From Methanomicrobiales archaeon HGW-Methanomicrobiales-3 (GTDB lineage: Archaea > Halobacteriota > Methanomicrobia > Methanomicrobiales > Methanospirillaceae), in contig PGYK01000005.1 in the NCBI GenBank assembly GCA_002839605.1, forward strand, positions 186,001 to 250,000: a DNA stretch of 64,000 bases. Reading direction: 5' to 3'. The translations under genes were made by a program, and so were the position numbers. Of this stretch, positions 51,976-56,180 are shown in pieces; the stretch's first letter is position 1; each line of letters begins with the position of its first letter. The notes beneath the pieces are model-generated. The model did no database searches, was not told where the DNA came from, and saw nothing but the letters and a program-made list of their open reading frames with translations.

Positions 51976-52944
51976 ATGAAACGGCAACTGATGGTATTTT
52001 CTGTGCTCCTCCTCGTCTCTGCAGGACTCGGCGTAGTACTACAGATTATTCCGGACCCGCTTGTTGCCAGCACATTCTACACCTTCCTTGTGCTGACGCT
52101 CTCGTACCTGTTCTTCTCAATAATCCTCGGCAGATTCCTGGTCGGACAGATCTCCGACAAGAAAACCCGGTACACGGCGAAAAAGGCCATCTCCGTCCTG
52201 TCAGTCATCTTCATCATCGCCCTCTGTCTCCGGATCTGGGTGACGGACACCTCGGCGCTTATCGTGTCGTATGGTATCATCGGTGCAGCCCTTGCCTTTG
52301 CCCTCCAGGACGTGTTTAAGAATTTTGTCGGGGGATTATTGATCATCCTCTCCGGGATGTTCCGGGTCGGGGACCGGATCGCCATTGACAACAATTTCGG
52401 GGACGTCATGGACATCGGGGTTTTGAACACCACACTGATGGAGATCCGGGGCTGGGTCTCCGGGGACCAGCCATCCGGGCGTCTCCTCACCATACCCAAC
52501 AGTCTTGTGATCAATCACCCGCTGTACAACTATACCCGGGACCATTCATTTGTCTGGGACGAGATCTCCATTCCCTTAACCTATGACAGCGACTGGCGGA
52601 GGGCAAAGGATCTCATCCTTGGCATTGTGGTTGGGGAGACCGCAGCCATGACCGTGCAGGCCGATGCGGAGATCGAACGAATCGGGGAGACCTACTACCT
52701 TCCCAAAAAAGTGGTCGAGCCTTCAGCGTACATCACGCTCACGGACAACTGGATCACGCTGGACATACGGTACGTTGCCGATGCACGTACCCGCCGTGTG
52801 CTCCGTTCCCGGCTCAACGAACTGGCCCTTGCAGCGATTGAAAAGGAGGACCAGATAACCATCGCCTCGACAACGGTCACGGTCACGAACGTTGGGGAAC
52901 CGGTACCAAAACCGGAAAAAACAGAGACAGGGGAGATGAGGTAA
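51976..52944 (+). CDS. MscS-family mechanosensitive channel
   Basis: A 322-residue small-conductance channel homologue. Three N-terminal helices are followed by the pore helix A-A-L-A-F-A-L-Q-D-V-F-K-N-F-V-G-G, then the beta domain with R-V-G-D-R-I-A-I and T-I-P-N-S-L-V-I-N, and an alpha/beta C-terminal domain. MscS channels release solutes during osmotic downshock. The longer frame beginning 51940 is possible, but ATG 51976 fits the promoter. A second, different MscS paralogue lies at 54134. Confidence 0.9.
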   Translation: MKRQLMVFSVLLLVSAGLGVVLQIIPDPLVASTFYTFLVLTLSYLFFSIILGRFLVGQISDKKTRYTAKKAISVLSVIFIIALCLRIWVTDTSALIVSYGIIGAALAFALQDVFKNFVGGLLIILSGMFRVGDRIAIDNNFGDVMDIGVLNTTLMEIRGWVSGDQPSGRLLTIPNSLVINHPLYNYTRDHSFVWDEISIPLTYDSDWRRAKDLILGIVVGETAAMTVQADAEIERIGETYYLPKKVVEPSAYITLTDNWITLDIRYVADARTRRVLRSRLNELALAAIEKEDQITIASTTVTVTNVGEPVPKPEKTETGEMR

Positions 52945-53087
52945 AAATAGCATTCCGGATCCTATCCGCTGTAATTCTTTTAGATTCAACAGGCACCTGC
53001 CCATCCCGCACACCACTGGGAAAGGCTTTCAGGGTGCATATTGTTTAATAATCCTGCCGGAGTATCTGACTGATAGGAAAACGGGTG

Positions 53088-54131
53088 ATGAGGATGGCGG
53101 GAGAGGAAAAACCAGGACCAGGGAGTACGGTCATCAGCTATGAACCCGAGATGGCAGAGATCATCTCCACGATTGAACAGTCCGGAACGGGGACACCGGA
53201 GCATATCGCTATCGTTGCCGAACCCATGACCGGCCGCTCCACCATGGTTGCCGAGATCCGCCGCCTGTATGGTGACCGCGTCTACTACCTCCCCCTCGAG
53301 TTTGTCGTGCGGGAGTCCGACCTTCCCGACTTTGCATCCCTGCCCTATGACATCATTCTCATCGATAACTGCCAGTTCCTCTCAACGCGCCGGATCGGGG
53401 GGTTTAGCGTCATCGATTCGTTTCTCCGCACGCAGATCTCCTCAAAAAAACTCTTCATCACCACCTGGAATACGTTCAGCTGGCAATATCTTTCATCGGT
53501 CATCCATCTCGATTCCTACTTCCCAAAGAGGATCATCCTCGGCCGCATCGACACACCGGTGCTCAGGGACGTAATCAAGGCCCGGTACAAACCCGGGGAG
53601 ATAACGTTTTTGGACGAAGGGATTGCCGAACGTTCAATGTTCTTCTCGATCGTCCACCCGAAGGTCAACCTTCCGTTCATGGATGACGAGATCACAGTGC
53701 CGTGGATAAAACTGAACTTCACGGTCATGATACGCAAACTCCCCCATCACAAACGCGTCATCATCTCTGTTGAGGACATCATCTTTGAAAAGATCAACCG
53801 GATCGCGGGGGGGAACCCTGGAGTTGCAATCCTGCTCTGGGATGAAAGTCTCCACGACAATACCATCTCATTTGCCAACATTAAGGAAAAATCGTATTCC
53901 ATGTCCCTCAACACCAACGAATCCTTCATCCTCGCAACCATCGTCTCCATGGAGACCCTGCATGAAAATGACCTTGCCGCAATCGCCGGATCCGAGATGG
54001 ATTTCAAGAAAATTGTGTACCGGCTTGTCCAGCAGGGACTGGTCCATGACTGCAACGGGTATTACAGTGTTGAACCGTTTGCCCTTGTACCCGTGATCGA
54101 TTACCTGAAAAAGACCCGGAGGTTGTGGTGA
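53088..54131 (+). CDS. P-loop NTPase-like protein with winged helix, between two mscS genes
   Basis: A 347-residue protein. The P-loop region V-A-E-P-M-T-G-R-S-T (43-52) departs from GxxxxGK[ST], with Arg50 in place of lysine. A Walker B strand D-I-I-L-I-D-N-C-Q (88-96) and a sensor-like L-F-I-T-T-W-N follow. A helical region and a winged-helix-like C-terminus (about 275-345) complete a layout like archaeal AAA/STAND ATPases. The stop lies three bases before the ATG of the second MscS gene, so the two are coupled. The role is unknown. GTG 53085 and ATG 53094 are alternative starts. Confidence 0.65.
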   Translation: MRMAGEEKPGPGSTVISYEPEMAEIISTIEQSGTGTPEHIAIVAEPMTGRSTMVAEIRRLYGDRVYYLPLEFVVRESDLPDFASLPYDIILIDNCQFLSTRRIGGFSVIDSFLRTQISSKKLFITTWNTFSWQYLSSVIHLDSYFPKRIILGRIDTPVLRDVIKARYKPGEITFLDEGIAERSMFFSIVHPKVNLPFMDDEITVPWIKLNFTVMIRKLPHHKRVIISVEDIIFEKINRIAGGNPGVAILLWDESLHDNTISFANIKEKSYSMSLNTNESFILATIVSMETLHENDLAAIAGSEMDFKKIVYRLVQQGLVHDCNGYYSVEPFALVPVIDYLKKTRRLW

Positions 54132-54133
54132 CA

Positions 54134-54991
54134 ATGGCCGACACCTTCTCCCTTGGCAATGTAACCGCGGAACTCTCCATCAGGACAATTGATACAAACC
54201 TTGTCGTGTACATCGTCTTTGTTCTTATCGCTGCATATGTCCTGACACGGGTGCTCAGTTTCCTCCTCATCAATGTTTCAGAGCGCATCGGCTGGTACCG
54301 GACCACCATCACGATGCTCATTCCCTTATTAAAACTCGCAGTCTATGTGATTGCATTTTACCTGGTCCTTACAGCAGTTATCGAGCCTTCGCTGCCCCAG
54401 ATGATAGCGTTCTTTACGCTCTTTGCTGCCGGCGTCGGGTTCGGGCTCAAGGACTTCTTTGCCGACATTCTCGGGGGCATTGTCATCATCTTTGAAAAGC
54501 CGTACCAGATCGGCGACAAGGTGACGATCGGGAACCATTACGGAGAAGTCAAGGACATCGGGATCCGGGCTACCCGGATCCAGACCCCGTCTGACGAGAT
54601 GGTATCGATACCCAACGGGACCATCTTCAGCCAGCCGGTCCAGAGCGGCAATGCCGGCGACCTTGCGATGATGATCGACATCGACCTCTTTGTCCGGCCC
54701 GGGACTGATATTGATCGTGCCCTCAAAATCCTCAAAGAGGCTTTGGTCACCTCGAAGTACATCATCATCTCGGACCGGTACCCGTTCACGGTTCTTGCCG
54801 AAGATTTCCCGTTCTATATGCGCCTCCGGGCAAAAGGCTATGTCTCCGACCTCCGGCACGAGTTTGAGTTCAAGTCAGAAGTGACAAGGCGGGCATGGGC
54901 GGAGTTTATGAAAGCCGGGATCCGGTCACCCGGCTTTGTCCCCCCTTCTGAAGAGGTGGCCAGCGGGGAACCGGTTGAATCGGGGGAATAA
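54134..54991 (+). CDS. MscS-family mechanosensitive channel, second paralogue
   Basis: A 285-residue MscS homologue with three helices; pore helix G-V-G-F-G-L-K-D-F-F-A-D-I-L-G-G, beta domain Y-Q-I-G-D-K-V-T-I and S-I-P-N-G-T. ATG 54134 has GGTGAC immediately upstream, within the end of the NTPase gene, so the two genes are probably translated together. It is only distantly similar to the MscS at 51976. Confidence 0.9.
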   Translation: MADTFSLGNVTAELSIRTIDTNLVVYIVFVLIAAYVLTRVLSFLLINVSERIGWYRTTITMLIPLLKLAVYVIAFYLVLTAVIEPSLPQMIAFFTLFAAGVGFGLKDFFADILGGIVIIFEKPYQIGDKVTIGNHYGEVKDIGIRATRIQTPSDEMVSIPNGTIFSQPVQSGNAGDLAMMIDIDLFVRPGTDIDRALKILKEALVTSKYIIISDRYPFTVLAEDFPFYMRLRAKGYVSDLRHEFEFKSEVTRRAWAEFMKAGIRSPGFVPPSEEVASGEPVESGE

Positions 54992-55370
54992 TCCTTTTAC
55001 TCCCTGGAAAAACAGTGCCGGCCCGGGTTTTGACCCGGACTTTCGGCTGCTGTCCCGGGATGGCACCCTGGATCCTCGCACCAGGCCAGGCAGGATAATA
55101 TCCATGCAATCCCGGATTACATCCTGCATATGAACACCCGGTTCCTTTTTCCGGGATACATATCAGGATTCTTACAGTCAGGTGACTGATACGTATCTTT
55201 GGATTACTTTTTTCTTATATGGGGTGGGAAAAGGAAACACTATACGCAAGATCATGTTTTGCGGCAATGGCTGCATTCGCAACGCAGGGCATTGGACCAG
55301 CGGTACTCCATGAATTGCAGGTCTGTGCTTTTAAGGCACCCATCAGGTCAGAAACGTGGGGGGCAGTATC
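54992..55370 (+). other. intergenic region, no gene seen
   Basis: A 379-base gap. An inverted repeat GCCCGGGTTTTGACCCGG-like segment around 55021-55040 may act as a terminator after the MscS gene, and CCCGG-TTCCTTTTT-CCGGG lies near 55138-55157. GGGGGG before ATG 55371 is the likely ribosome-binding site. Confidence 0.4.
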
Positions 55371-56180
55371 ATGGTGGTAAAGAACAATTCAGAAAATTCC
55401 CTGCCCGGCAGGGGGATGGCAGATGACAGCCAGTACAGTCTTATTAAAATTATTACTATCTGGGCGCTTGCCACAGCACCCATGACATTGTTTGCATTTG
55501 TCGTAACCCCGGCAATTATCAGTTTTTTTGCGATCCCGGCAAGCGTTCCGCCGTTTCTCGTTTTCTGGCCGCTGATGATCCTCGGCCTTGTCTGGCAGTT
55601 TGTACTGTCCCTGATTATCATCCATAACGAGACCGGGAACCTGAAATGGGAGACGATGAAAAAACGGATGTGGTACACCATGCCCCGCGATCCCAATACC
55701 GGCGAGAAACGCGCCAGTTTATTCCTGTGGGCTATTCCCTTCATCGCATTAGGCCTGGCTTTGATGGTTGTCCCGTTGCCTGATTTTTTAGGCTCCACGT
55801 TTCCCGTAATCAACAGCCTGCCCCACTACAACATGGGAGAGGTGATGAACTCTGAGTTCCAGGGAGTCTGGTTGTTGGTGGTCCTGACACTGATAACCAT
55901 ACCGTTCAACTACTTCCTGGGGGAGGAATTTCTTTTCCGGGGAATACTGCTCCCGAAGATGAATGGCGTGTTCGGGAAGTGGGACTGGTTTTTCAACGGT
56001 GTTTTTTTCGGGTTGTACCATCTTCACAAACCACAGGGGATCCTGTCCCAGGTATTGTTCTCAGGGTTCCTTTTGAGTTACCCATCCAGGCGGTTCCGGA
56101 GCAACTGGATGGCGGTAATCATCCATGGAATTGAAGCCCCGATTGCTTTGTGGATTGTTTTTGGAATCGTTCTCGGATAG
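55371..56180 (+). CDS. CPBP-family intramembrane protease
   Basis: A 269-residue membrane protein of the CPBP (CAAX protease/bacteriocin-processing) family. The glutamate active site is G-E-E-F-L-F-R-G, and a second motif F-G-L-Y-H-L supplies a histidine. About six to eight helices. Substrate unknown. In archaea such proteases are sometimes linked to membrane protein processing. Confidence 0.85.
   Translation: MVVKNNSENSLPGRGMADDSQYSLIKIITIWALATAPMTLFAFVVTPAIISFFAIPASVPPFLVFWPLMILGLVWQFVLSLIIIHNETGNLKWETMKKRMWYTMPRDPNTGEKRASLFLWAIPFIALGLALMVVPLPDFLGSTFPVINSLPHYNMGEVMNSEFQGVWLLVVLTLITIPFNYFLGEEFLFRGILLPKMNGVFGKWDWFFNGVFFGLYHLHKPQGILSQVLFSGFLLSYPSRRFRSNWMAVIIHGIEAPIALWIVFGIVLG

Follow-up and report, generated by a model that had tools for sequence, protein, structure and literature searches.

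A predicted STAND/AAA+-fold protein with an often degenerate P-loop is encoded beside an MscS-superfamily channel in Halobacteriota

The MscS channels are mostly regarded as stand-alone valves opened by membrane tension, and we know of no STAND-fold partner for MscK, MscM, MscS or YnaI. In archaea, an MscS-like channel gene is found beside N-acetyl-beta-lysine genes in the ynaI-kamA-ablB osmolyte operon of Methanoperedens, as described in the consulted passages of PMC11337218. No description of the gene pair reported here was found in the titles and abstract openings of the literature searched or in the consulted passages of PMC4230888 and PMC11337218. The pair consists of a gene for a P-loop-type protein, called NTP, and the MscS-superfamily channel gene that follows it, called MscS2.

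The pair was examined in a window of 64,000 nucleotides, the whole stretch analysed, from the 2.59 Mb genome of a Methanomicrobiales archaeon (contig PGYK01000005.1). Three ORFs on the plus strand span 51976-54991. MscS1 (51976-52944; Pfam MS_channel_2nd, E 2.3e-13) is an MscS-family channel and only an optional neighbour. NTP (53094-54131) is a 345-residue protein of predicted STAND/AAA+ fold. MscS2 (54134-54991; MS_channel_2nd, E 2.2e-21) is the obligate partner of NTP. The two channels share 29% identity over 89 residues, in agreement with a preliminary description of the locus as two dissimilar mscS genes around an NTPase-like gene on one strand. Two of its details need correction. It started NTP at ATG 53088, which is open as is GTG 53085, but the relatives begin MAGEEK, so the start is probably ATG 53094; and the gap between NTP and MscS2 is two bases (54132-54133), not three. 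Downstream of MscS2 lies a CAAX-type (Rce1-like) membrane protease (55356-56180, Pfam family match), a family also matched by 3 of 105 neighbours in other loci.

Relatives of NTP occur in 55 of the 199 genomes of the order when searched with the single sequence, and in 70 of the 392 genomes of the phylum Halobacteriota when searched with a 32-member profile, three of the latter being weak (G129, G369 and G377; E 5e-5 to 8e-4). We fetched 97 loci, namely 55 in the order, 39 outside it and three named ones (L034-L036). From the 42 profile matches outside the order, the weak G369 and G377 were omitted together with G413, which is the same place as L036. An NTP ORF was obtained in 94 loci. Among the other three, L052 has NTP and MscS2 side by side by tblastn, L090 is cut by the contig and L159 has a 65-residue match only.

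MscS2 directly follows NTP on the same strand in 86 of the 94 NTP loci and is the second gene after it in three more (L075, L138 and L143). It is missing from five, four of which are at contig ends (L050, L070, L076 and L150), while the fifth, L065, is an artefact of ORF picking, as tblastn shows MscS2 abutting NTP there. The 86 include L157, where NTP is broken and separated from MscS2 by 273 bases. The order of NTP followed by MscS2 is far beyond chance, and the scatter of NTP relatives without mscS neighbours, which would have spoken against the preliminary reading, is not what we found.

The pairing holds from the side of the channel as well. At a threshold of E <= 2.1e-50, the MscS2 subgroup (counted by hand) is present in 55 of the 199 genomes of the order, 54 of which are NTP genomes, and the next MscS matches come at E 2.5e-25 or weaker. 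In G110, the genome with MscS2 only, the final 15 residues of NTP remain at a contig edge, and the genome with NTP only (G107) is cut at a contig end. Part of an MscS2 begins a contig of G194, and a 77-residue remnant without NTP is left in G109. No MscS2-type channel that was intact and could be assessed lacked its predicted STAND-fold partner gene. NTP is single-copy in nearly all genomes that carry it, and no NTP-MscS fusion protein was found among the fetched ORFs. The carriers are many methane-producing and methane-oxidising archaea and one haloarchaeon.

The real unit is this two-gene pair, smaller and far more widespread than the triplet that the preliminary description proposed to seek in other archaea. 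The MscS1-type channels occur within the fetched stretch in only 19 of the 94 loci, placed upstream on the same strand, downstream on the same strand or downstream on the opposite strand, and they also occur in genomes without NTP. Broken extra copies of the MscS1 type with internal stops lie near the pair at G157:C1:1004293-1004777 and upstream of NTP in L041; MscS1 seems prone to duplication and decay.

A few loci are disrupted within the pair itself. Broken NTP genes in L138 and L143 (genus f8g71), L157 and L085 adjoin an MscS2 that is still recognisable, and they are natural cases of partner loss. In the relative G149 (L038 / L032), MscS2 is interrupted near residue 221 (C19, about 64481) and its remainder is on another contig (G149:C15:135-335), either by insertion or by misassembly.

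The junction of the two genes bears sequence signs of translational coupling. In 78 of 87 cases the nearest ATG is offset by -1 to +2 from the stop codon of NTP, so that the two codons commonly touch or overlap, and in the window a Shine-Dalgarno-like GGAGG for MscS2 (54118-54122, plus strand) is within the NTP 3' end. Where NTP ends in W, the Val just before it is encoded by GTG in 46 of 52 genes, versus 27% of their other Val codons, and the Arg by AGG or CGG in 63 of 66, versus 51% elsewhere. These biased codons point, at least in part, to an embedded ribosome-binding site for MscS2. The same bias weakens the case that the C-terminal RxVW serves purely for protein docking, despite the last W being kept in 74 of 83 relatives.

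The two genes are also co-inherited. Their pairwise distances correlate with r 0.88 (n=83), to which shared ancestry contributes. The genus f6g27 falls inside an f1 clade in the trees of both genes; for NTP the AU test rejects a monophyletic f6 (p-AU 5.8e-6), and the clade holding f6g27 has an SH-aLRT of 100 in the MscS2 tree, which is a quick tree without the AU test. By this phylogenetic placement, the pair appears to have moved together between families. A search of 72,556 plasmids provided an unplanned test. The only NTP relative there, annotated as hypothetical, belongs to the haloarchaeon Salinirubellus (25% identity). Its gene overlaps by 4 bases the next gene downstream, for a 'mechanosensitive ion channel family protein' with 48% identity to MscS2, so the pair recurs in this haloarchaeon.

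The NTP model built from six sequences (pLDDT 71, pTM 0.68; pLDDT under 50 for residues 177-222) has a P-loop core and a helical region, and its C-terminus (53913-54113, plus strand) resembles a winged helix, as had been surmised. Comparison with STAND and AAA proteins, suggested at the outset, gives AAA+-fold matches. Foldseek (E 3.5e-7) finds RuvB and ORC/Cdc6, with Avs4 and plant NLRs (resistosomes) ranked lower, and VIA-align finds NSF and Cdc48 with Z 12-13 over about 200 residues. The global TM-scores are low (about 0.3-0.44 by query length), so the domain placement differs. The AAA+ fold with helical and winged-helix parts is thus found at the model level only.

By sequence, NTP matches no Pfam family above the cut-off, AAA_16 scoring 15.5 bits against 32.6, and of the 32 profile members 8 match AAA_16 and 5 match nSTAND3 at E <= 0.1. 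NTP has no match in NCBIfam or, by sequence, in the PDB; its profile gives only chance-level matches against the PDB and its comparison with a viral fold library only generic AAA proteins. NTP is best called a predicted STAND/AAA+-fold protein rather than a proven STAND member.

The winged-helix-like C-terminus and the matches to ORC/Cdc6 and RuvB, along with the commonness of operon-linked regulators, might suggest that NTP binds DNA and regulates the transcription of its own operon. This role is improbable, as the domain is not basic but slightly acidic (median net charge -2, with 0 in the recognition-helix segment), the gene order is fixed and NTP is co-inherited with the channel. Moreover, the winged helices of STAND proteins usually do not bind DNA.

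The P-loop was surveyed in 83 paired sequences, taken from 88 NTP ORFs of at least 300 residues. The usual Walker A pattern, [AG]x4GK[ST], permits a leading Ala. The window NTP reads AEPMTGRS (53217-53240, plus strand) and fails the pattern by the Arg in place of Lys, which the preliminary description had rightly seen, whereas the lack of a leading Gly that it also took for degeneracy is no departure. At the Lys position, the relatives have Lys in 28, Arg in 34, Gln in 12 and others in 9, so that Lys is replaced in 55 of 83. The strict GxxxxGK[ST] fits 5 and [AG]x4GK[ST] fits 20 of them. Lys and not-Lys interchanged at least five times on the NTP tree by an undirected count.

Other motifs are better kept. 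Walker B is intact as first described, reading IILID in the window (53352-53366, plus strand), and 73 of 83 relatives keep its acidic residue (Asp in 56 and Glu in 17, with other residues in 10). The STAND NTPase motif GxP appears as GNPG (53811-53822, plus strand), with Pro in 56 of 83. In the TTWN....W.YL motif (53460-53492, plus strand), W125 and N126 are each kept in 82 of 83 and W130 in all 83, so conservation peaks outside the catalytic residues. The family is mixed, with Lys-retaining and Lys-replaced members, and the window NTP is, by its motifs, a probable pseudo-NTPase. A channel with a P-loop-fold partner of degenerate P-loop, as originally perceived, is supported by the sequence, the family survey and the model.

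Of the NTPs with Lys or Arg at the P-loop position, 54 of 62 keep the GxP Pro, versus 2 of 21 of those with another residue there. We do not claim that the P-loop Lys and the GxP Pro decayed jointly, as the starred branches give only three independent pairs (sign test p 0.5).

The main rival to a regulatory partnership is that NTP is a dedicated chaperone, acting in the assembly, targeting or quality control of MscS2 instead of its gating. Its AAA+ fold matches such as NSF and Cdc48 would suit this role, and a one-to-one coupling with the chaperone-like gene first would suit a co-translational assembly factor. However, an ATP-driven cycle agrees poorly with the loss of the P-loop Lys in 55 of 83 NTPs, and, NTP being single-copy, other MscS-family channels in the same genomes do without an NTP of their own. 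We consider the chaperone role unlikely.

Around the pair, the fetched stretches contain KUP transporters in 8 of 94 loci and AblB in 8 of 94, in three genera and differing arrangements, and most of the AblB genes are accompanied by AblA-type aminomutases. If relatedness is ignored, a single-copy gene should by simple proportion (16 kb of 2.5 Mb) fall in about 0.6 of 94 such stretches. Pfam families of 105 of the 167 neighbours are those of mixed housekeeping genes plus Usp, K_trans and LAM. The neighbours of the pair thus include genes for KUP potassium transporters and for N-acetyl-beta-lysine, in a minority of loci, and no defence islands.

Another aminomutase-like gene, of 486-495 aa and with a weak match to AblA, is upstream in L039, L040 and L042 and downstream in L047, either next to AblB or separating it from AblA. 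The genome of the window has AblB and two KUP genes on other contigs, away from the pair. This AblB (G000:C16:264371-265204) has one internal TAA and adjoins an MscS-family match (C16:263496-264014), and the locus is either a decayed osmolyte cluster or a sequence error.

The preliminary description offered a regulated release system or a membrane-acting defence effector. The former remains the most plausible part. For the latter, taken as abortive infection or another kind of defence in which a STAND-like sensor would open a pore in the membrane, one may cite the STAND-type fold with its matches to Avs4 and plant resistosomes and the transfer of the pair between families. Nevertheless, NTP, MscS1, MscS2 and the CAAX protease match no PADLOC family at E <= 1, and no NTP relative was found in viral contigs. 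Among the PADLOC matches listed for the 105 neighbours (25 of 49 families), the few found are mainly generic, with Csa3 in two members and single members for E1-E2, mad3 and mad8. The model of NTP shows no added sensor domain beyond the core and the winged helix, its gene is single-copy in nearly all genomes, and osmotic-stress genes are nearby instead. A defence function is thus very improbable.

The channel itself is readily recognised. MscS2 has the MscS beta/pore domain (PF00924) at 76.2 bits, above the cut-off of 20.2; the profile of the MscS C-terminal domain (PF21082) scores 16.3 bits, under its cut-off of 21.0. Its nearest solved chain is MscK 7uw5 (E 1.1e-15). A model of MscS2 was too poor (pLDDT 51) and left unused.

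NTP-MscS2 is a conserved two-gene module of Halobacteriota with sequence signs of translational coupling, and we lean towards the reading that NTP is the cytoplasmic regulatory subunit of an osmotic channel. MscS2 would form the predicted pore in the membrane, and the soluble NTP would most likely bind the cytoplasmic part of MscS2 and set when opening is allowed, governing the release of solutes or potassium as the cell adapts osmotically. Where lineages retain the P-loop Lys (Methanosarcina-type and Methanoperedens-type), the switch could be nucleotide binding; in the window lineage, where the Lys is Arg, NTP probably works without hydrolysis. Against this reading stand the small share of loci with KUP or AblB nearby, the placement of both elsewhere in the window's genome and the middling confidence of the NTP model. 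Alternatively, the channel and NTP could share a pathway without touching.

A more specific version is possible but tentative. NTP would act as a dedicated gating subunit of STAND fold, by which the opening of an MscS pore depends on a signal from the cytoplasm. The signal would require nucleotide in the Methanosarcina-type and Methanoperedens-type archaea and be free of it in most Methanomicrobiales, whose ATP site has decayed while the presumed channel-contact surface around WN...W is kept. This would be an NLR-like switch wired to an archaeal ion channel.

The often-worn ATP site of NTP and its pairing with a channel suggest a previously undescribed control of MscS channels. If so, some archaea control MscS-type valves by a separate cytoplasmic switch. 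The repeated change of the P-loop Lys provides a natural series, from a possible ATPase to a pseudo-ATPase, in which channel control may be separable from catalysis. Methanosarcina-type archaea carry the pair, and as some of them can be manipulated genetically, its role is open to experimental testing.

Compared with the known STAND/AAA+ proteins (nSTAND3, AAA_16 and ORC/Cdc6-like), the NTP model is alike in the layout of core, helical and winged-helix parts, and NTP resembles the STAND NTPases in the GNP motif. It differs in the frequent loss of the Walker A Lys (55 of 83), in the AAA_16 score of the window NTP below the Pfam cut-off, and in reading TTW where a sensor-1 TTR is expected. The ynaI-kamA-ablB operon is similar in that AblA and AblB are near the NTP-MscS2 pair in some loci, but the consulted passages of PMC11337218 give its YnaI-like channel no NTPase partner. 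MscS2 shares the pore and beta domain with MscK, MscM, MscS and YnaI, and differs from them in being short (285 aa) and tied one-to-one to a predicted STAND-fold gene.
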